A stretch of DNA of 64,000 nt from Methanolobus mangrovi (lineage in GTDB: Archaea > Halobacteriota > Methanosarcinia > Methanosarcinales > Methanosarcinaceae): contig NZ_CP133594.1 in assembly GCF_031312535.1 (NCBI RefSeq), positions 1,116,001-1,180,000 on the forward strand, written 5' to 3'. Shown one piece after another: positions 31,549 to 62,739 of this stretch. The notes under the pieces are model-generated. The model was given only the letters and a program-made list of their open reading frames with translations, was not told the DNA's origin and did no database searches. A program made the position numbers and the translations under genes. Within the stretch, counting starts at the first letter, position 1. Each line of letters begins with the position of its first letter.

Positions 31549-32772
31549 TTCATCAGGACTAGAGCAGGAGACCACCGTATTAATGCGGTGGAGGAATGTG
31601 TCAAATACCAACGAAAATGCCATATAATCATGAATTATATGTTCAATATATGCTTCTGACTATCAAGGTAAAATTATATCCTAATAATCAACAACATAAG
31701 GCATTATTAGAGACCATGGAACGTTTCAACGAAGCATGCGATTATATTTCAAAAATAGTATTTAGCAATCGTGTATTCGGTAAAATCGCCATCCATAGAA
31801 TTGCTTATTATGATGTTAGGGAAAAATTTGACCTTTCTTCTCAAATGGTAGTTAGAGCAATAGGCAAAGTAGCGGAATCTTACAAAGTTGACAAATCATG
31901 TTGTCACGAATTCAAAAAACATGGTGCTATCGTCTACGACCAGAGGATTCTTACATTCAAAACATCGGATGAGATCTCTATCCTAACACTTGAAGGTAGA
32001 GAACGCATTACCATAAAATACGGAGAATATCGCCCTCTTGATACGGATAGAGTAAGAGGACAGGCAGACCTCATCTACCATAACAATACCTTCTATCTTA
32101 TGGTAGTTGTAGACGTTCCTGATGCAGACCCTATAGACCCCAACGGAGTCATAGGCATAGACATGGGAATAGTTAATATAGCTACAACCTCTGACGGTGA
32201 GATATTCTCTGGAAAAAAGTGTACGGAAGTACGTCAACGTTATTCAAATCTTAAAGCAAAACTCCAAAGCGTAGGAACTCACTCAGCCAAAAAACATCTC
32301 AAGAAAATAAGTGGAAAGGAAAGACGATTTAAAAAAGATACTAATCACTGTATAGCTAAAGCGATCGTTCAAATTGCAAAAGACACAAACAGGGCTATTG
32401 CCATTGAAAAACTCAAGGGTATTAGAACTAACAGCACGGTTAACAAAGCAGTAAGAACAGCTATCGGTAAATGGGCTTTCGATGAATTGGGTAACTTTCT
32501 CAAATACAAAGCCGCTCTCGCAGGTATTCCAGTATTTGAAATAGACCCTAAAAACACATCGCGAGAATGTTCAGTATGTGGCCACATTGACAAGGGCAAT
32601 AGAAAAAATCAAGCAGAATTCCATTGTCAAAAATGTGGACATAATGAAAACGCCGATATAAACGCTTCCAAGAACATATCATCCAGGGGCATCTGTCAAC
32701 TGTCCCATAGTCTTCTGTCCTGTTAAGGAACCTAGAAAGACAAGCCGCCCCATTTATATGGTGGTAGTTGAC
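31549..32772 (+). mobile_element. Solo TnpB (IS1341-type, IS200/IS605 superfamily) element; ends approximate
   Basis: One tnpB gene flanked by subterminal hairpins and no tnpA (Y1 transposase), so non-autonomous. Left hairpin: CCACCG (31572-31577), loop, CGGTGG (31586-31591). Right hairpin: CCGCC with GGTGG across AT-rich loop (about 32744-32764), followed by TAGTTGAC, which resembles the usual right terminus of such elements. Exact cleavage points and the target-adjacent motif are not fixed. It sits between the debranching gene and the second GT4 without breaking either. Confidence 0.7.
31650..32726 (+). CDS. tnpB: TnpB RNA-guided endonuclease family protein
   Basis: A 358-residue TnpB (IS605 OrfB) protein, ancestor group of Cas12. 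The RuvC-type triad seems intact: Asp in GVIGIDMGIVNIA, Glu in IAIEKLKGIR and Asp in NADINASKN. The zinc finger has two Cys pairs, CSVCGH and CQKCGH, spaced in the normal way. The N-terminus MLLTIKVKLYPNNQQHKALL is the typical family opening, so the ATG at 31650 is preferred over the longer frame starting at 31596. TnpB proteins cut DNA guided by RNA from the element's right end and help retain the element. No tnpA alongside. Activity is inferred from motif conservation only. Confidence 0.92.
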   Translation: MLLTIKVKLYPNNQQHKALLETMERFNEACDYISKIVFSNRVFGKIAIHRIAYYDVREKFDLSSQMVVRAIGKVAESYKVDKSCCHEFKKHGAIVYDQRILTFKTSDEISILTLEGRERITIKYGEYRPLDTDRVRGQADLIYHNNTFYLMVVVDVPDADPIDPNGVIGIDMGIVNIATTSDGEIFSGKKCTEVRQRYSNLKAKLQSVGTHSAKKHLKKISGKERRFKKDTNHCIAKAIVQIAKDTNRAIAIEKLKGIRTNSTVNKAVRTAIGKWAFDELGNFLKYKAALAGIPVFEIDPKNTSRECSVCGHIDKGNRKNQAEFHCQKCGHNENADINASKNISSRGICQLSHSLLSC

Positions 32773-34451: not shown

Positions 34452-34545
34452 ATAAAGTATTATCAAGCAAAATAAGCTATTTTGAGGCTTTTTTTATAGA
34501 GAATCACGCTTGAAGTTTTCATGAAGTAAAGTATGTTTATATCCG
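34452..34545 (+). promoter_or_regulatory. Envelope-gene promoter module, copy 1 (S-layer gene)
   Basis: Upstream box ATAAAGTATTATCAAGCAA at 34452-34470, then 69 nt start-to-start to the identical 15-mer ATGAAGTAAAGTATG at 34521-34535, which runs into TATA-like TTTATATCCGG. Between them is an AAGC...GGCTT inverted repeat (about 34474-34490). Copies 2 and 3 lie at 57751 and 59998. Transcription probably starts near 34563-34570, giving a leader of about 270 nt. Confidence 0.75.
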
Positions 34546-34567
34546 GTTCTGCAAATCCGGGACTGTA

Positions 34568-34711
34568 GGTTGAAACATGACGCAATGTTAGTTTCAAACC
34601 TATACTTTGAACTCAACTAGGAGGGATTACGAAAACGTAAGCAATTTTGTAGACTTTTATGACCCTTATACCGGTTAGTTTAGTACTGAGCCAAACGGAA
34701 GGCTAAACCGG
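34568..34711 (+). promoter_or_regulatory. Structured 5' leader of the S-layer mRNA
   Basis: Two hairpins are evident: GGTTGAAAC (34568-34576) with GTTTCAAACC (34591-34600), and CCGGTT (34671-34676) with AACCGG (34706-34711), the latter enclosing TTTAG/CTAAA. Long structured leaders on S-layer mRNAs are often stabilising; that function is inferred here. Confidence 0.5.
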
Positions 34712-34841
34712 AAAATAGTAACAAGGGACATGAAAAAGATATTAATATTTAATTTATAAGATAGATGTGCATTTATATACTATAACTTTGATAAACCTTT
34801 ATGCATAATACAAAAGAAACAGAATTTGGAGGGGAAAGAAT

Positions 34842-37460
34842 ATGAAAAATCAAACAAAATTATACGTATCTGTAGTAGCAATATTAATATTGCTAATATG
34901 TTCAGGCGTTGCTACTGCTGCAAGTAACACTACAGATAACAGTACTGGTAATCGTATATGGGATGCAGATGAAAATCTCTCTCTTGAATACACATGGACA
35001 GCTTTGAGCTATTCAGGATTCTATTATGACCTCGATTCAGGTGAAGGGTCAGAAACACTCACTATAAAGCTGGACAGTAATAGTGACAGAAATATAGGAG
35101 ACGGTGATCTCGAATACGTAACAACTCCCATTGACACTGATTTTGAGCAGGGAGATTGGGGATCCTATCAGGTAATCGGATTCATGGCAGAGAGATATTT
35201 TGCCGGTTACACTGATGACACCGAATTCGCAAAAGATAGTGTAAGCCTTATTTCCGATGGTATACTTGCAAAGGTCCTTATGGATGATGATGAAGAGATA
35301 TCATTCTATTCCGGCTCTTCCCTTGTACTTGAAGAAGGATACGAGCTTAATCTGGAAGAAGTAGACGTAAACGGTAACAGTGTACTTGTCACTCTTGAGA
35401 AGGATGGAAAGAAACTGGATACTGATATTGTGTCTTCAGATGACGATTATGTATACGAGGCTGATCTTGGAACCGATGATGACGTTCCTATAATAGCAGT
35501 CCATTTCACTAACATCTTCCAGGGAACTGAAACAAATGCAGTATTCGTTGAAGGTATCTTCCAGATATCAGAAGATTATGTGAGTGTGGAATCTGGAGAT
35601 ACTTTTGGAAAGATGGAGATACAAGCCCTGAGCTCAGATGAGATCACAATGGAAAATTCAGATTCCATCAGTCTGGGAAGAGGCGATACCATCAGCATTA
35701 TGGGTAAACTGAAATTCCTGGTTGCAGATGCCAGCACCCTTAGATTCGGACCTATGGTCGATATGTCAGAACCAGGCACCTATGAGCTTAGAGGTACAGT
35801 TGCAGAAAACGAAGAACTTAAATGGACACCGCTGAACTTTGAAGGATTCTATTACAACATCGATGAAGGCGTGGGAACCGAATCTCTTGAGATAAAGGAC
35901 CTTGGTGGCAGAACTATCGATGACGGAGACCTGGTTTACAGAAGCATACCTCTTGATGTCAGTTTTGAACATGATGACTGGGGAGATTTCCAGGTAATTG
36001 GTTTCCTTGCAGAGAAATACTTTGCCGGATATCCTGACAACGAATTCACAGATGATGTCAGCCTGCTTTCTGACGGTCAGCTCTCAAAAGTACTTATTGA
36101 CGATGATAGTAAGACATCACTTTACTCAGGTTCTTCTTTGATACTTGAAGATGGGTATGAACTCTACATTGTTGAAGTCGATCTTGACGGAAGCAGTGTA
36201 ATGGTAAACCTTGTACAGGATGGCGATGATGTTGATACGGGAATTGTTTCCTCCGATGACGACTATGTTTACGAGAAAGACATTGGTTCAACAGATGACG
36301 TACCAATCATAGTTGTGCACTTTGATGAGATATTCAGAGGAACTGAAACAAATGCAGTATTCATAGAAGGTATTTTCCAGATATCAGAAGATGTAGTTGA
36401 AATTGCTGCAGATGAAAAGTTCGGAGAGATGGAAGTTACAACTTTCTCATCAGATGAGATAGTCCTTGAGAACGAAGACTCTATTTCACTTACAAGAGGA
36501 AATGTTGTCGAGATCATGGGCGATATTGCATTTAACGTTGCAGATGATGGTGATGTACGTTACTATCCATTTGTGGAAGTATCCACACTGCCCTCCGAAT
36601 CACTTTCCATAGACATGCCTTCTGTTGTTAAGCAGGATACAGAAATGGAAATTGAAGTAACATCAAGAGGTGCAGCTGTTAACAATGCTGTTGTAATGTT
36701 CGGTGGTGAGGAAATCGGACAGACATCAACTGATGGTACAATATCATACACTCCGGAAACTGCAGGTACTTTCACCGTCACTGCTGAAAAAGAAGGTTTT
36801 GTTTCAGCAAGCGAAAAAGTGGAAGTCATCTCACCTGAGGATGCAAGCAGGAAACTCGTCATAGAAGTATCCCCGGAAACGGTTGTTGAAGAAGACACAA
36901 TAACCATCTCTGTAATCACAGCTATTGGAGGAGATTCCGTTGAAGATGTACAGCTTTACTATGATAACAAGCTCATAGGAAGTACAGATTCCAATGGTAT
37001 GATCACATACACTGTGAAAGAACCAGGAATGCATAAGCTGACATCTTCATCAGATGAATATCTTGAGGCCGAGCTCAACCTTGAGGTTCTTGAGTTGACT
37101 GCAAAGTTCTCATACTCCAATTTGCAGGTGACACCTATCCTGGTGAAGACCGGAGAAGAGGTCACTGTTACAGTTGATGTAATGAACACAGGCACCGCAG
37201 CAGGTGAAACAGATGTGGATCTGCTCATTAACGGAACCGTTGCAGACTCTAAGAGTGTATCATTGGATAAAGGAGAAGAAACAACTCTTACTTTCACAGT
37301 CTCACAAGAAGAGGCTGGTACCTATGAAGCACAGGTTGGAGATTCCACTGCAATCTTCGAAGTCGAAAAAAGCTTACTCCCTGCACCAGGTATCGTTGCT
37401 TCAATTATGGTGGTACTTGCAGTTGCATTGCTTGTACGCAGGAATGAAAGAAAGGGCTGA
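34842..37460 (+). CDS. Major S-layer protein with duplicated S-layer domain
   Basis: An 872-residue secreted, membrane-anchored surface protein. Signal peptide at 1-29 (VVAILILLICSGVATAAS). Two homologous S-layer domains of the Methanosarcina type (DUF1608/PF07752) at about 45-305 and 324-575; matching landmarks are SGFYYDLDSGEG and EGFYYNIDEGVG, AERYFAGY and AEKYFAGY, and GTETNAVF(V/I)EGIFQISED in both. Then two Ig-like/PEGA-type domains (about 585-745), a CARDB-like domain (about 750-840) and a C-terminal anchor LPAPGIVASIMVVLAVALLVRR. Many Asn-X-Ser/Thr sites. GGAGGGG stands seven bases before ATG. Own promoter, long leader and terminator show a dedicated, highly expressed unit. Confidence 0.94.
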   Translation: MKNQTKLYVSVVAILILLICSGVATAASNTTDNSTGNRIWDADENLSLEYTWTALSYSGFYYDLDSGEGSETLTIKLDSNSDRNIGDGDLEYVTTPIDTDFEQGDWGSYQVIGFMAERYFAGYTDDTEFAKDSVSLISDGILAKVLMDDDEEISFYSGSSLVLEEGYELNLEEVDVNGNSVLVTLEKDGKKLDTDIVSSDDDYVYEADLGTDDDVPIIAVHFTNIFQGTETNAVFVEGIFQISEDYVSVESGDTFGKMEIQALSSDEITMENSDSISLGRGDTISIMGKLKFLVADASTLRFGPMVDMSEPGTYELRGTVAENEELKWTPLNFEGFYYNIDEGVGTESLEIKDLGGRTIDDGDLVYRSIPLDVSFEHDDWGDFQVIGFLAEKYFAGYPDNEFTDDVSLLSDGQLSKVLIDDDSKTSLYSGSSLILEDGYELYIVEVDLDGSSVMVNLVQDGDDVDTGIVSSDDDYVYEKDIGSTDDVPIIVVHFDEIFRGTETNAVFIEGIFQISEDVVEIAADEKFGEMEVTTFSSDEIVLENEDSISLTRGNVVEIMGDIAFNVADDGDVRYYPFVEVSTLPSESLSIDMPSVVKQDTEMEIEVTSRGAAVNNAVVMFGGEEIGQTSTDGTISYTPETAGTFTVTAEKEGFVSASEKVEVISPEDASRKLVIEVSPETVVEEDTITISVITAIGGDSVEDVQLYYDNKLIGSTDSNGMITYTVKEPGMHKLTSSSDEYLEAELNLEVLELTAKFSYSNLQVTPILVKTGEEVTVTVDVMNTGTAAGETDVDLLINGTVADSKSVSLDKGEETTLTFTVSQEEAGTYEAQVGDSTAIFEVEKSLLPAPGIVASIMVVLAVALLVRRNERKG

Positions 37461-56873: not shown

Positions 56874-57713
56874 TTATACATTTTGGTTTGAATCTTCTTC
56901 AGCCTTGCTTTCCTCAAGAATTATCACATTACCACGACCTTTCTTGAATTTCCGTACGATTCCCCGGCTCTCAAGATCGGACACCATAAGGCTGACCTTG
57001 GCTTCTGAATGGCGGACCCTTGTACGGAGTTCCTTCTGGGTAATTCGCCCATCGTTCTTTGAAATGATACCTATTACTTCCCGGAGATCATCAGGTAATC
57101 CCTGCCATATATCTGCCGGAAGTATTGAACCAAGATCGTCGTTAGAAATATGACTGTCTTCATAATCCGAAGTCGATTTACCACTGCGTTGTTTTACAAT
57201 ATAATAGGCTCCTGCAGATAGTATCACAAGAATGAACAGAATAGCTATCATTGCCAAAGAAAACGGACTTGAATCCTGTTCATCGTCAGCATCTGAAAAG
57301 CTTGCAATCTCATCAAGTTCCGCAAACTCATTCTCACCCAGAGAATCATAGTATACCGGCAGCAAAATCAGGTCCAGTACATAGTCACCATCACCAGTGA
57401 CAGTAATTTCCTCTTCTGTGTATGCAACCAGATTGTTAGAACTGTAAAAACTGGCAGATATAAGATAATCCCCGGGCTCCAGATTAAAAGAATATATTCC
57501 ATATTTTGCAAGCATGGACTGAGGAGGCGTGGAATTCACCTCAACAATAACATCCTCAAGAGGATCAAATGAATCCCACTCATACACCGCACCATGGATA
57601 GTTGCTACTTCTACCGCAGTTGAAAACTGCACACCTGCAAGTAATATGATGCAGATTATACCAAGCAGGGTCATTTTTTTGATTAACACAGGATGTATAT
57701 TTACTAAGTACAC
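56874..57713 (-). CDS. Membrane-anchored winged-helix regulator with extracytoplasmic beta domain
   Basis: About 279 residues. N-terminal signal/membrane helix (MTLLGIICIILLAGVQFSTA), an extracytoplasmic carboxypeptidase-regulatory-like beta domain (HGAVYEWDSFDPLEDVIVEV, NLEPGDYLISASFY), a second membrane helix (SLAMIAILFILVILSAGAYY, about 160-180), then a cytoplasmic MarR-like winged helix at about 210-268 (ITQKELRTRVRHSEAKVSLM, ESRGIVRKFKKGRGNVIIL). This outside-in layout is a known archaeal one-component sensor type. Start is GTG at 57713 (keeps the KK before the helix) or ATG at 57674. It is divergent from the surface-protein cassette, whose promoter module lies in the shared spacer. Confidence 0.82.
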   Translation of the reverse strand: MYLVNIHPVLIKKMTLLGIICIILLAGVQFSTAVEVATIHGAVYEWDSFDPLEDVIVEVNSTPPQSMLAKYGIYSFNLEPGDYLISASFYSSNNLVAYTEEEITVTGDGDYVLDLILLPVYYDSLGENEFAELDEIASFSDADDEQDSSPFSLAMIAILFILVILSAGAYYIVKQRSGKSTSDYEDSHISNDDLGSILPADIWQGLPDDLREVIGIISKNDGRITQKELRTRVRHSEAKVSLMVSDLESRGIVRKFKKGRGNVIILEESKAEEDSNQNV

Positions 57714-57750: not shown

Positions 57751-57845
57751 ATAAAGTATAATCAAGCAATTAAAGCCCCTATAAGGCTTAAAATTTGAAT
57801 ATGGGCCATTAAAGAATGAATGAAGTAAAGTATGCATATATACTC
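57751..57845 (+). promoter_or_regulatory. Envelope-gene promoter module, copy 2
   Basis: Upstream box ATAAAGTATAATCAAGCAA (57751-57769), one mismatch to copy 1, then 69 nt start-to-start to the same 15-mer ATGAAGTAAAGTATG (57820-57834) and TATA-like CATATATACT. AAGCCCCTATAAGGCTT forms an inverted repeat between them. GATTGCAGGC (57861-57870) in the presumed leader matches copy 3. Drives the first secreted-protein/lipoprotein cassette. Confidence 0.75.
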
Positions 57846-58024
57846 ATCTGAGAATCATAAGATTGCAGGCACAATATCCAGGATCCGAGAGTACTTGCCG
57901 GAATAAGGAGAATGTGACACGCTGGCAGACAAATAACCATCTGTGGTTAAAATAACTGACCTGCCTGCAATATTAATATCAAGAACTGATTCATTTATAT
58001 TAAAAGATAAAGCGAGGAATGAAA

Positions 58025-59251
58025 ATGAAAAACATAGGAGTTAAGATATTTGCATACATTGCTGTTGTACTTATGCTGGCTAGTATAGCCCCGGCAATGG
58101 CAGTTGCTGATACGGACAACCTGCAGGACAGAATACAGGAAAGAGATAGAGTCAATCTAACAATGGACGCATCAAATGATGGGGTGCAAAACCAGATCAG
58201 ACAGGTTATGAACACACAGGAAAGATATGGCGAAGCAACTGAGAACTTCCTGCGTATAAAAGCCAACAACTCTGCGCTCAATACGGAAGAAGCCATAGAA
58301 GCCACCAAAGAGTACCTGAACAGTACCATTGATGTGATGATAGAGTCTCTTGAAAATGAAGAATATATAGAAAAACTGAATGAAGAAAAGGAAGATATCG
58401 CTGCAGCCACCACCAGAGCGGAACTGGCCGAATGTGCCCAGGATATAAGAGAAATCTGGAGAGAAGCTCGTGATGAAAGAACTAGCTCTACAACTACTTC
58501 CATCAATAACAAGCTCACAGCAGTCATGAGAATATCCGAAACCATGACACTTCGCCTTGAAAATGAGATTGCACGCATTGAAAAGAATGGTGAAGATGTG
58601 ACCGGGCTTCAAGAGATGCTTGTAGAATATAAAGCACATATCGCTGAAGCAAGAGAATACCAGGAACAGGCAATGATTGCCAACACCAACAGGGAAAGGC
58701 AGTCTCAGGGCTTCCAGAACATGAAGCAAGCAGGTCTTAGTATCAAAGAAGCAAATGCCGTACTCGGAGACATGCTTACAGAACTCAAACAATACCGCGA
58801 GGGTCTTGTAACTCTTAGCGCAGATGAAACACTTACTGCCGAAGGGGATGGAACTGCAGTTCTTTCCGGTGACTTCGTCCTTAGTTTTAATGCAGACGAT
58901 GCCATACTTGTTGTCAAGGACATGGACGGAGATGCAAAGGTAGACACCGAAGGTGCAAGCTATGGATATTCAAACGTAGATGCAGGTAACAGCGACATTA
59001 ACAACCGGGCATTTGTCTATCACAACCTTACAGGTGATGTTACAATTGAAGGCACCCGTCTTACAATCACACTAAGAGGAACAGATATATCTCTTGATGT
59101 TGCTGGAAATGGCAGTGTAATGTTTACCGGAAATGGAACCTACGAATTGAACGGTGAAGAAAGTAAATGGACAGCATCTTATGTTGAGGAGGAGAAAGAA
59201 GCTGAATCCGAAGATGAAACACCAGAGCCTGAGGAACAGAACGATATTTAA
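58025..59251 (+). CDS. Secreted acidic coiled-coil/beta surface protein, cassette 1
   Basis: About 408 residues. Signal peptide at the start (IFAYIAVVLMLASIAPAMAVA), a long charged helical region (about 30-255) with a motif shared with its paralog, EEAIEATKEYLNSTID, then a Gly/Asn/Asp-rich beta region (about 260-380; GDGTAVLSGDFVLSF, NVDAGNSDINNRAF, GNGSVMFTGNGTY) suggestive of a beta-helix or sandwich, and a Glu-rich tail. No C-terminal membrane anchor, several Asn-glycosylation sites. I do not know the family. GAGGA sits six bases before the ATG at 58025; the ATG at 58019 is too close to it. Paralog at 60657; a lipoprotein gene follows in both copies. Confidence 0.78.
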   Translation: MKNIGVKIFAYIAVVLMLASIAPAMAVADTDNLQDRIQERDRVNLTMDASNDGVQNQIRQVMNTQERYGEATENFLRIKANNSALNTEEAIEATKEYLNSTIDVMIESLENEEYIEKLNEEKEDIAAATTRAELAECAQDIREIWREARDERTSSTTTSINNKLTAVMRISETMTLRLENEIARIEKNGEDVTGLQEMLVEYKAHIAEAREYQEQAMIANTNRERQSQGFQNMKQAGLSIKEANAVLGDMLTELKQYREGLVTLSADETLTAEGDGTAVLSGDFVLSFNADDAILVVKDMDGDAKVDTEGASYGYSNVDAGNSDINNRAFVYHNLTGDVTIEGTRLTITLRGTDISLDVAGNGSVMFTGNGTYELNGEESKWTASYVEEEKEAESEDETPEPEEQNDI

Positions 59252-59303
59252 GTATAAGATTGACAGGATTAAAAATGTTTAAATTTTACTATGAAGGAGA
59301 TGA

Positions 59304-59597
59304 ATGTACATGTTAAAACGAAAATACATTGTAATACTGGCAATTCTGGTCCTTGGACTTGTAGTATCAGGTTGCACGGACAATGCACCCCAGGAAGATA
59401 AAACATTATCTGAGAACACTGCAGCAGAAGAATTAGATGACAATAACAATGCATCCGTTGCTGATGTGACACTTGGCGAGGAAATGGTTGGAATTACGGA
59501 CCCTGAGATCCAGGACATTGAAGAAGAACTTCAAGAACTGCAAGTACTCATCAATGAAACAGATGTTGAAGAAGACATTGTTGTCGAAGAAATATGA
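59304..59597 (+). CDS. Small acidic lipoprotein, cassette 1
   Basis: A 97-residue exported lipoprotein: basic n-region MLKRKY, hydrophobic IVILAILVLGLVV, lipobox VSGC, then a strongly acidic mature part of about 70 residues. The C-terminal half, EEMVGITDPEIQDIEEEL onward to EEDIVVEEI, is probably an amphipathic helix and is closely matched by the lipoprotein at 62281. AAGGAG precedes the ATG (59304; 59310 is also possible). It follows the coiled-coil gene by 52 nt, so is probably co-transcribed. No known family; it may tether the partner protein to the membrane, which is inference. Confidence 0.75.
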   Translation: MYMLKRKYIVILAILVLGLVVSGCTDNAPQEDKTLSENTAAEELDDNNNASVADVTLGEEMVGITDPEIQDIEEELQELQVLINETDVEEDIVVEEI

Positions 59598-59633
59598 ATG
59601 AGCTTCATTCATATTTTTTATTTCTTTTTTTAA
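59592..59633 (+). terminator. Terminator overlapping the lipoprotein stop codon, cassette 1
   Basis: ATATGAATG (59592-59600) pairs with CATTCATAT (59606-59614); the TGA stop is inside the left arm. Followed by TTTTTTATTTCTTTTTTT. The same stem occurs after the second lipoprotein gene with a different loop. Confidence 0.75.
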
Positions 59634-59997
59634 TATTGCCAATCTTTGTGTAAACCTGACAGAGATTGCATTGTCATTGTTCTTTTTTAGAAGCTCTTTG
59701 TACCTGCTTAGAACTAGCGTTAGAACAAGCAGGACAAATATTCTAATTATTGTAACTTATGAAAAACAATTTTCTTCTGAATATTTGGTCAGGTTATTAC
59801 CATCATACTGGCTGATATTGTGTAATTATCAGACATCTGGCTACTTGTATAGATACTATATTTCAAGAGTATTAATCAGGAAGTATTGAATTTACCTCAA
59901 CACCGCCATAACTGCATAATTTTTGGTGAATGTATAATGCGCATTTGCCAATCATATCCAATAACAAAGGTTATCCTACAATTCAATCTAAAGCCTG
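59634..59997. other. Intergenic, one sizeable hairpin, no gene recognised
   Basis: Contains the inverted repeat CCTGCTT (59703-59709) and AAGCAGG (59727-59733) around a smaller CTA...TAG stem; a possible small RNA or decayed terminator. Open frames here lack ribosome-binding sites and family resemblance. Confidence 0.35.
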
Positions 59998-60092
59998 ATA
60001 AAGCTTTATCAAGTTAAATAACTCATTCAAAGACTCCTTCATACAACAAAGCATGCTTAAAGTTTCCATGAAGTAAAGTATGCTTATATCCG
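59998..60092 (+). promoter_or_regulatory. Envelope-gene promoter module, copy 3
   Basis: Upstream box ATAAAGCTTTATCAAGTTA (59998-60016), weaker match, then 70 nt to the identical 15-mer ATGAAGTAAAGTATG (60068-60082) followed by CTTATATCCGG, almost the same as copy 1, and AATTGCAGGTG in the presumed leader. Serves the Asp/Cys-rich secreted protein gene. Confidence 0.72.
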
Positions 60093-60191
60093 GCTTTGCC
60101 AATCAGAGAATTGCAGGTGTAAGCTAAGCACACCACCAAGTATTGCATGGCTTACACCTACAACATATAAGATGAAATGGGAGAAGATAGT

Positions 60192-60506
60192 TTGAAAATA
60201 AGAACATTGACATTAATTGCGGTAGCCATTATGCTGGTCAGTTTATTTACTGTGACTGCAATGGCAGCGTCTGAACAAAAACAGAAAGGGGATAGATCAC
60301 AAGATGGCACATGCCTCCTGACCACTTTTGTAGACGAAAACGGTGATGGTGTTTGTGACAATTTTGTAGATGAAGACGGTGACGGTATCTGTGACAACTG
60401 CCAAGGTGATGGTGTCTGTGACGGAGACGGACCATACGGAAATGCTAGAGGTTATGGCAATGGTGATGGAGACGGAGTGTGCGATGGACCGTGCGCAACG
60501 GATTAA
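60192..60506 (+). CDS. Small secreted Asp/Cys-rich, probably calcium-binding protein
   Basis: About 104 residues: signal peptide KIRTLTLIAVAIMLVSLFTV ending AMAAS, then tandem short repeats of the form DENGDGVCDNF, DEDGDGICDNC, GDGVCDGDG and NGDGDGVCDGPC. The D-x-(N/D)-x-D-G spacing is that of EF-hand/thrombospondin-3/dockerin calcium loops, with paired Cys that could form disulfides. A TTG start at 60192 is favoured: GGGAG lies eight bases upstream and it gives a basic signal-peptide n-region; the ATG at 60177 has no SD and adds acidic residues. Promoter module copy 3 upstream, terminator downstream: a single-gene unit within the surface locus. Confidence 0.72.
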   Translation: MKIRTLTLIAVAIMLVSLFTVTAMAASEQKQKGDRSQDGTCLLTTFVDENGDGVCDNFVDEDGDGICDNCQGDGVCDGDGPYGNARGYGNGDGDGVCDGPCATD

Positions 60507-60524
60507 ATCACAATAAAAAAGGCT

Positions 60525-60552
60525 ATCCGGCTAATTTAGCCGGATCTTTTTA
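60525..60552 (+). terminator. Hairpin terminator after the Asp/Cys-rich gene
   Basis: ATCCGGCTA (60525-60533) and TAGCCGGAT (60537-60545) form a perfect 9-bp stem with a 3-base loop, followed by CTTTTTATTTAT. Confidence 0.85.
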
Positions 60553-60656
60553 TTTATAGCACATCATAATCTTTATCACTTTCATTTATTATACCAATAT
60601 ACCAACAAAATAAATTAATAGACAAAAAAATTAAAAGAGAATTGGAGGGTAATCTT

Positions 60657-62252
60657 ATGGAAAAACAAGGATTGAGAATATTTGCATACTTTGCTGCAGT
60701 ATTAATGCTGGTCAGTATTCTTCCAGCAGGAGCACTTGCTGCATCCGATAATGCGAAAAACTTTGATGATAAGGCAATATCAGGAAACAATGGGAATGGG
60801 AATGGAAACGTAGCTGATGATAACAGTGCTGATGAAGATGATTCTGATGATGACACGACACCTTCCTATGACAGGGATCGTGACAGAATAATGGATAACG
60901 CATCGGAAGATGTGACAAGGAAAAGAACTGAAAACATGAATGCTGAATCTGATTATAAAGATGCAAAGATCAAGTATTCCAATATAAAGTCCAAAAATCC
61001 AAATCTGAACTCTGAAGAAGCTATTAACACTACCAAAGAATACCTCAATAGTTCAATCGATTATATGATATCACTCCTTGATGCGGAAGATGATGCAGAT
61101 TACATAGAGGTTCTGGAAGAGGAAAGAGACAATGTAGAAGCTGCCGAAACGAGGAAGGAACTTGCAGATGCTGCAAAGAACATCAGAAGTATATGGAATG
61201 ATGCACGTAAGGACCGCGTTGTCACTGCAGGAAAAGCCATCGACAACAAGATCAATGCGGTTCTTAAGACATCAGAATCACTCATAGTACGTCTTCAGAA
61301 TGAGATCGATGCCATGGAAGAAAATGGGGAAGATGTAGAAGATCTTACGGCAATGCTTGACGAATACAAGGAACTCATAGATGATGCCAGGGAGAAACAG
61401 GAGCAAGCAAGATCTGCATACATGTATGGAAATGTCGGTAACGGTGAGAATATCCAGGAAGCAAACAGGTATCTTGCAGAAGCTGGAGAGGACATCAGAG
61501 ATGCAAATGCAATTCTGAAGAACATGCTCAAGGAACTCAAGAAGCAGAGAGAAGGAGTAGTTGTACTTACAGGAAATGAGACACTGGAAGCTTCAGGTAA
61601 TGGCACAGCTGTTATCTCAGGAGATGTTGAAATAAATATCACAGCTAACGAGTACGCTAAGCTTGTCATTAAAGACCTTGCAGGTAATGCAAAGATAATA
61701 CTAGGTGATGAGACAACGTATGAAACCTCTAACATTGATGCAGGTAACAGTACAGACAATAACCGCGCATTTGTCTTCATAAACCTCACAGGTGACGTAT
61801 ACATTAACGGAAGCCGTCTTACGGTCATGCTCCAGGGATCAGATGTAGAACTTACTGTTAAGGGAACAGGTACTGCAGTACTTTCAGGTGATGGTATCTA
61901 TTATATCGGTGACGAAGGTGGAGAATGGGCGAACCGTTATATCGACGACGATGAAGACTCAGAGGATGAAGAACCAGCAGAAGAAGAACCTGAGGAGGAA
62001 GATGATAGTGTAACAGTCGTTGCAAACTTCACTTACACTGTTGATGGTCTTAATGTGACTTTTAATGATACATCTATGAATGCTTCTTCATGGAACTGGG
62101 ATTTTGATGATGGTAATAATTCAATTGAACAAAATCCAACACATGAATATGCTCTTTCTAAGGAATATAACGTCACTCTGACCTCATATGAATCTGATAA
62201 TGATAAATTGAACAATGATTCAATAACACAGACCATTAACTTGACTGTATGA
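60657..62252 (+). CDS. Secreted acidic coiled-coil/beta surface protein with PKD domain, cassette 2
   Basis: A 531-residue paralog of the 58025 protein. Signal peptide (IFAYFAAVLMLVSILPAGALA), a hyperacidic Asn/Asp segment, the long helical region with EEAINTTKEYLNSSID, and the beta region with GNGTAVISGDVEI, NIDAGNSTDNNRAF and GTGTAVLSGDGIY, each aligned with its counterpart. It differs by a C-terminal PKD domain (about 450-531: VANFTYTVDGLNVTF, SSWNWDFDDGNNSIEQNPTH), common on archaeal surface proteins. GGAGGG (60644-60649) is seven bases before the ATG at 60657. No membrane anchor. The lipoprotein gene follows 28 nt later. No promoter module copy directly upstream. Confidence 0.8.
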   Translation: MEKQGLRIFAYFAAVLMLVSILPAGALAASDNAKNFDDKAISGNNGNGNGNVADDNSADEDDSDDDTTPSYDRDRDRIMDNASEDVTRKRTENMNAESDYKDAKIKYSNIKSKNPNLNSEEAINTTKEYLNSSIDYMISLLDAEDDADYIEVLEEERDNVEAAETRKELADAAKNIRSIWNDARKDRVVTAGKAIDNKINAVLKTSESLIVRLQNEIDAMEENGEDVEDLTAMLDEYKELIDDAREKQEQARSAYMYGNVGNGENIQEANRYLAEAGEDIRDANAILKNMLKELKKQREGVVVLTGNETLEASGNGTAVISGDVEINITANEYAKLVIKDLAGNAKIILGDETTYETSNIDAGNSTDNNRAFVFINLTGDVYINGSRLTVMLQGSDVELTVKGTGTAVLSGDGIYYIGDEGGEWANRYIDDDEDSEDEEPAEEEPEEEDDSVTVVANFTYTVDGLNVTFNDTSMNASSWNWDFDDGNNSIEQNPTHEYALSKEYNVTLTSYESDNDKLNNDSITQTINLTV

Positions 62253-62280
62253 TGGTGAATGATATAGGAGTTGATGTGAA

Positions 62281-62547
62281 ATGACCAAATTAAGAAATAT
62301 CGTCATCATCGCTGTCCTGCTCTTCGGTGTTGTGGTTTCCGGATGTGCTGATAAAGGTACAACTGAAGAGGAAGCAGTGACAAACGATACCATGCAGGAA
62401 GTAAGTCTTGCAGATGAAGCACTTAGCCAGGAAATGGTAGGTATTACAGACACTGAGATCGAGGATCTGGAAACTGAGCTTGCAGAACTTGAAGCACTTA
62501 TTGATGAAATGAGCCTCGAAGAGGACATTGTAATCGAAGAAATATGA
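62281..62547 (+). CDS. Small acidic lipoprotein, cassette 2
   Basis: An 88-residue lipoprotein: KLRNIVIIAVLLFGVVVSGC lipobox, then an acidic mature part whose C-terminal half (QEMVGITDTEIEDLETEL to EEDIVIEEI) closely matches the lipoprotein at 59304, while the region just after the Cys differs. AGGAG precedes the ATG. Co-transcribed with the PKD-bearing surface protein. The conserved acidic helix at the C-terminus is the likely interaction part. Confidence 0.77.
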   Translation: MTKLRNIVIIAVLLFGVVVSGCADKGTTEEEAVTNDTMQEVSLADEALSQEMVGITDTEIEDLETELAELEALIDEMSLEEDIVIEEI

Positions 62548-62577
62548 ATGGATGACATTCATATTCTTTTATTTTTT
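62542..62577 (+). terminator. Terminator overlapping the lipoprotein stop codon, cassette 2
   Basis: Same 9-bp stem as in cassette 1: ATATGAATG (62542-62550) and CATTCATAT (62556-62564), loop GATGA, followed by TCTTTTATTTTTTT. Confidence 0.75.
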
Positions 62578-62739
62578 TGATTTTTACCTCAGGCCTTTGC
62601 ATGGCTTCGCATGCATGCTTTTTTAATATCAAGATTTAATCATTTCTGTAGATTAACAAATAACGTACAGATGCATTTTTATAGATGAACAAACAACATA
62701 ATTGCACTTAGAAATGATACCATATCTAAGAGGAAAATC

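Follow-up and report, generated by a model that had tools for sequence, protein, structure and literature searches.

A tandem coil-lipoprotein gene pair of Methanolobus mangrovi is the exported half of an archaeal module that includes a membrane-tethered gene regulator

What is the role of a duplicated pair of genes for exported proteins in Methanolobus mangrovi? The question was raised by a 64,000-nucleotide stretch of its genome (contig NZ_CP133594.1, positions 1,116,001 to 1,180,000 of the forward strand; hereafter the window, whose own numbering is used throughout). Two tandem units within it, unit 1 (58019-59597) and unit 2 (60657-62547), each encode a large exported protein with helical and beta parts (big1 and big2) followed by a small acidic lipoprotein (lip1 and lip2), and a first-pass annotation read them as a possible two-component surface assembly. 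The two genes are indeed kept together, but they do not form a unit of just two: a gene divergent from big1 (56874-57713, minus strand), which that annotation had overlooked along with the gene of a small exported protein at 60177-60506, encodes a membrane-tethered regulator that is a third constant member. The pair is thus the exported half of a larger archaeal module including this regulator, and the linkage of regulator and surface pair very probably marks a functional module.

The regulator consists of an N-terminal signal/anchor helix (model residues 8-30), a transthyretin-like ectodomain (approximately residues 37-119), a transmembrane helix (150-177) and a cytoplasmic DUF7343 winged helix (208-266). 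Its DNA-binding domain matched DUF7343 (E 8e-17) and HTH_24 (E 1.3e-5) and adopted a winged-helix layout in the AlphaFold2 model, for which the predicted local distance difference test (pLDDT) gave 81 overall and approximately 96 for the beta ectodomain. Foldseek matched the ectodomain to the transthyretin-like domains of carboxypeptidase D/N. The hydrophobic helix 150-177 was found in both sequence and model between the outer and inner parts, a predicted topology in which the regulator would span the cytoplasmic membrane with the transthyretin-like domain outside and the winged helix inside. The protein is 89% identical to its counterpart in Methanolobus psychrotolerans.

To survey the linkage, we took 81 full-length regulators from 60 relatives and counted as linked those lying within 2.5 kb of a gene for a long or short form of the surface protein. 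Linkage was found for 67/81 regulators, of which 38 diverge from a long-form gene and 28 immediately follow a short-form gene. Both regulator and surface protein were encoded in 53/60 genomes (neither in 3, two of which are small genomes). The regulator adjoins the helical gene in Methanococcoides, Methanohalophilus, Methanomethylovorans, Methanohalobium, Methanoperedens and Argoarchaeum, and the same neighbourhood recurs in Hadesarchaea (L213), Altiarchaeota (L218, L236), Archaeoglobi (L233, in the order big-lip-regulator on one strand) and Alkanophagales (L238). A regulator and a beta-less surface protein with its lipoprotein also seem to exist in Methanosarcina (L048, L072). When the linked label was mapped on a tree of 83 regulators, it changed 12 times, against a mean of 27.7 for shuffled labels (0/500 shuffles as low), and the regulators linked to short forms made up one group. 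The 14 unlinked regulators (12/14 outside the family) belong mostly to families of the ANME-2 type (ANME, anaerobic methanotrophic archaea), where both genes are usually present but apart. In an ANME-2-type clade, a member of the regulator family was observed directly downstream of an S-adenosylmethionine synthetase-like gene, which takes the place of the surface gene (L189, L204, L206-L208, L211, L214, L220, L225).

Chance, or vertical synteny in a slowly rearranging lineage, could produce such a picture, and the genus does conserve unrelated genes next to the module too (homoserine dehydrogenase, DNA ligase, HtpX). We consider this explanation very improbable for the module as a whole: the link is also found in Hadesarchaea, Altiarchaeota, Archaeoglobi and Methanoperedens, where the flanking genes are unrelated and differ between phyla and the gene order takes three forms, and the association occurs at two unlinked loci in this genome.

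The large protein and the lipoprotein are likewise paired in gene order. A match to the lipoprotein profile lies directly downstream of 80/84 distinct long-form genes, a test that is not independent since the profile was built from such neighbours; it is not generic, because only 19/666 (2.9%) other genes of at least 250 residues at the same loci were followed by one. Of the four loci without such a match, L033 encodes the lipoprotein in a longer, overlapping open reading frame, which leaves one Alkanophagales and two Altiarchaeota loci as real misses. The co-occurrence expected by the first-pass annotation is thereby borne out for the long form; it does not extend to a shorter paralog, which has no separate lipoprotein and in several genera carries a lipobox of its own. 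The lipoprotein tracks the helical part of the large protein, since genes without the beta domain keep it (Methanosarcina-type L048, L049 and L053; L064; Methanoperedens L235; L227). At L227 (1128-2425) and L238 (4322-5795), the helical and beta parts are separate adjoining genes, a natural split. From these sequence patterns it is somewhat more probable than otherwise that the lipoprotein is the anchor of the large protein, which it would bind through the helical part.

Such strong pairing (80/84 vs 2.9%) would also suit a purely structural assembly, a view close to that of the first-pass annotation. Here the large protein, held by the lipoprotein, would serve as a stalk or spacer from the membrane to the surface layer (S-layer), and the regulator would set its amount and receive no signal from it. 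The long helical region, the beta domain and the acidic, sequon-rich chains fit this design, as does an S-layer gene in this genome that has the same promoter box (see below). It does not account for the presence of the regulator, with its conserved outer domain, beside the pair in distant phyla, or for the copy of the regulator that the short paralog has directly downstream; we regard a purely structural role as possible, though rather unlikely.

The short paralog is encoded in this genome at a further locus at 1.74 Mb, where two short forms of approximately 300 residues retain the beta domain but, of the helical region, just its end. The lipobox of its own is found in Methanococcoides- and Methanosarcina-type genomes. 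A fusion of lipoprotein and short paralog was considered as proof of binding and rejected: the best short-form matches to the lipoprotein profile cover only residues 1-34 (signal peptide/lipobox), and the few longer ones are near chance. Because the matches are limited to that part, the short forms show anchoring in the same chain and not a fused binding helix. On the simplest reading, we infer that the long form is anchored in trans and the short form in cis. In several genera the short paralog and its regulator are flanked by genes for an ATP-binding cassette (ABC) ATPase and a CARDB-like exported protein, joined by one for a MacB/FtsX-type permease where the flank extends that far. Operons of short paralog and regulator were observed at L008 (1-5000), L065-L073, L215, L222, L226 and L230, and such operons are also flanked by divergent helical exported proteins weakly similar to the helical region of the long form.

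This setting beside a MacB-type ABC system would fit a role in envelope stress, and it is likewise an argument for an exporter adaptor, in which the helical hairpin and beta domain would act like a membrane fusion protein of the MacA/AcrA type (a fold of alpha-hairpin, lipoyl and barrel domains) for a MacB-like ABC transporter and the regulator would be its drug or peptide sensor. AcrA, MexA and MacA did appear among the weak fold matches, but with E values of 0.1 or worse these fell short of significance, and Z scores of this size are unspecific for helical alignments. Moreover, no Pfam adaptor family was matched, and no ABC genes lie beside the long-form loci in the window or in other phyla. 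An adaptor function is accordingly improbable in our estimate.

A candidate DNA element for control of the pair by the regulator is a promoter box beside the TATA element. In this complete genome, a search over all 2.62 Mb found four exact copies of TAAAGTATGNNTATAT (none of the reversed control) and, with one mismatch, 10 sites (reversed control 3). The four exact sites precede big1, the transcript of 60177-60506 and big2, the short-form operon and an S-layer gene. The first is GTAAAGTATGCATATAT before unit 1 (57825-57841, plus strand), the second transcript has GTAAAGTATGCTTATAT (60073-60089, plus strand), and the fourth exact box (34526-34542, plus strand) lies upstream of the S-layer gene 34842-37460 (PF07752, E 2e-200). 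The part of the box separate from the TATA element is GTAAAGTATG. Across the 27 genomes of the genus, TAAAGYATGNTTATAT occurs at 34 sites (reversed controls 0); by their gene maps, 28 of these stand before this family and 2 before S-layer genes, and 4 do not fit. The shared box and the gene order make it fairly likely that the regulator controls the divergent promoter.

Two more exact boxes were seen in other genomes, L136 (G019:C1:2701542) and L132 (G010:C105:1116), one before an unrelated lipoprotein gene and the other with a leader stem TTGCAGGCG, where no gene of the family was found; both are possible extra targets. The S-layer gene 34842-37460 is a possible member of the regulon, and its leader (34526-34842) has a hairpin AGGTTGAAAC/GTTTCAAACCT, as the cassette leaders do. 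A general S-layer regulon was rejected, the box standing within 500 bp upstream of only 2/17 S-layer orthologs with a recognised start, in this and one other genome (G024); the link of box and S-layer is therefore lineage-specific.

Downstream of the box, both transcripts probably have a structured 5′ leader. A conserved TTGCA box begins approximately 20 nt after the TATA element, and since TATA boxes lie 19-22 nt before the start in the Methanolobus start-site map (PMC5378194), transcripts probably start with the TTGCA box. It pairs with a downstream arm to form stems of 6-16 bp (shuffled means 4-7). The leader of unit 1 (57861-57971, plus strand) is closed by the stem ATTGCAGGCA/TGCCTGCAAT, starting approximately 20 nt past the TATA box, and that of the second transcript has the stem AGGTGTAAGC/GCTTACACCT (60114-60158, plus strand). 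In an alignment of the 9-bp arms, joined by an artificial loop, 6/9 pairs were changed on both sides, and 0/500 shuffles reached the covariation score; 90% of cells paired (slid controls at most 53%), a percentage that is inflated because the 3′ arms were chosen by complementarity. Transcripts thus probably begin with a covarying stem. Searches of the region against Rfam gave no match above the family cut-offs.

The architecture of the two units themselves agrees with the first-pass annotation in most respects: they have the same gene order with paralogs at both positions, the C-terminal acidic helix of the lipoprotein is conserved in an alignment of 37 homologs, and both lipoprotein stop codons lie inside a shared stem. 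The protein big1 (58019-59251, plus strand; 410 residues) consists of a signal peptide, a helical/coiled-coil region (residues 53-257), a beta domain (263-383) and an acidic tail. Its paralog big2 (60657-62252, plus strand) has an extra C-terminal PKD domain and 531 residues counted from an ATG, the mechanical open reading frame beginning at TTG 60642; the two share 43% identity over 432 columns (E 1e-103). The lipoproteins lip1 (59304-59597, plus strand; 97 residues, lipobox VSGC) and lip2 (62281-62547, plus strand; 88 residues) share 49% identity (E 1e-27). They follow their large genes after 52 bp and 28 bp, respectively, and carry a Sec signal with a lipobox cysteine, the GC of the lipobox being invariant in 37/37 aligned homologs. 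The stems over the stop codons (ATATGAATG...CATTCATAT, 9-10 bp; folding -8.2 and -8.5 kcal/mol) belong to terminator-like hairpins with T runs at 59592-59620 and 62542-62578 (both plus strand). Between the units, the second transcript begins with the gene 60177-60506 (plus strand), encoding a small exported Cys-rich protein with DENGDGVCDN/DGDG (DGDGVCDN-type) repeats that resemble calcium sites; in many Methanolobus genomes, the large gene is likewise preceded by a counterpart bearing a signal peptide of this type.

Most genomes of the genus have a single pair, and a tandem second copy was found in 5/27 (this genome, G000; G016; G022; G024; and, decayed, G014), so the duplication is a local event. 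In G014 (L061, 2229-3944), the decayed first unit is a fragment of the large gene with a lipoprotein gene on either side, one of which is extended and divergent. The PKD domain described for copy 2 is present (PF18911, E 6.7e-9, above the cut-off), but it was not gained in this genome only: among 35 family members it occurs in 2, including the second copy of another genome, and it is therefore a feature of a lineage. Farther away in the window, a lone TnpB/OrfB-type transposon protein is encoded at 31596-32726 (plus strand), between a glycogen-debranching-type gene and a glycosyltransferase gene.

The statement that neither protein belongs to a known family also held. Pfam and NCBIfam searches with the big and lip proteins gave only chance-level matches, the PKD domain aside, and phage records contained no relatives. 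A fold search of big1, in which the beta domain was not searched alone, returned nothing with E < 0.001 and only generic helical bundles. The G/V-rich beta domain has a weak profile similarity to the C-terminal triple beta-helix of T4 gp5 (best E 0.0016), a marginal, composition-prone match, without support in the fold searches of big1, that is a lead only. Like the S-layer proteins of Methanosarcinales (PF07752), the large protein and the lipoprotein are exported and share the promoter box with one S-layer gene here; unlike them, they lack PF07752 (searched to E 10 for big1 and big2 and to E 0.01 for 35 family members), and only 2/17 S-layer orthologs have the box.

The regulator is easier to place. 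Transmembrane transcription regulators are one-component proteins, common in archaea, that work on promoters while held in the membrane (Demey et al. 2023, PMC10269533); a single chain joins the domain that binds DNA to an outer domain through a transmembrane segment, a layout found here as well. Class membership is limited to these regulators in general, the partner genes being unrelated to those described and the partner proteins of no known family, and the literature searched holds no description of the DUF7343/transthyretin-like family or its exported partners. In working logic, with no sequence relation seen, the module resembles ToxR/ToxS and TcpP/TcpH of Vibrio (PMC7496328, PMC11323476), in which a membrane-bound winged-helix regulator has an extracytoplasmic partner encoded beside it; here, 67/81 regulators have the gene of an exported protein beside them, and the arrangement recurs in distant phyla. 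The presumed partner sets the module apart: it is a secreted helical/beta protein together with a lipoprotein, their genes run divergently from that of the regulator, and the partner is probably a target of the regulation as well.

Our best explanation, to which we give about an even chance, is an envelope-sensing transmembrane regulator whose target and probable partner is the exported coil-lipoprotein complex. The regulator would control the divergent promoter of the large protein and the lipoprotein; the lipoprotein would tether the large protein to the membrane by its helical part, a task that the anchor in its own chain would perform for the short paralog; and the regulator ectodomain would read the state of the anchored complex in the space under the S-layer and feed this reading back to the promoter box. 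We infer the binding of the regulator to the box, the transfer of a signal, its nature and the direction of control. That the exported complex reports to the outer domain is a tentative proposal. Still more doubtful, as a joint claim, is an ancient archaeal analogue of ToxR/ToxS assembled from unrelated proteins, in which the regulator senses a coil-lipoprotein tether under the S-layer and, through the box and the structured mRNA leader, tunes its own gene, the tether and in some species an S-layer gene.

Several points weigh against sensing with feedback. Gene linkage alone also fits plain regulation, and the box abuts the TATA element and could be merely a strong core promoter. A shared locus is not obligatory, as several ANME-2-type families have the regulator and the pair unlinked; within the genus, linkage is in part the general synteny described above, and the pairing percentage of the leader stem is inflated.

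In the literature searched, no membrane-bound regulator of methanogens, ANME or related archaea has a described exported partner, and no signal is named by which the state of an archaeal S-layer would be reported. The module is widespread; its gene set is defined, its promoter box is rare and it has a probable structured RNA leader, and Methanosarcina is an apparent carrier that is genetically tractable. It probably lets methanogens and their relatives adjust the cell surface to events outside the membrane.

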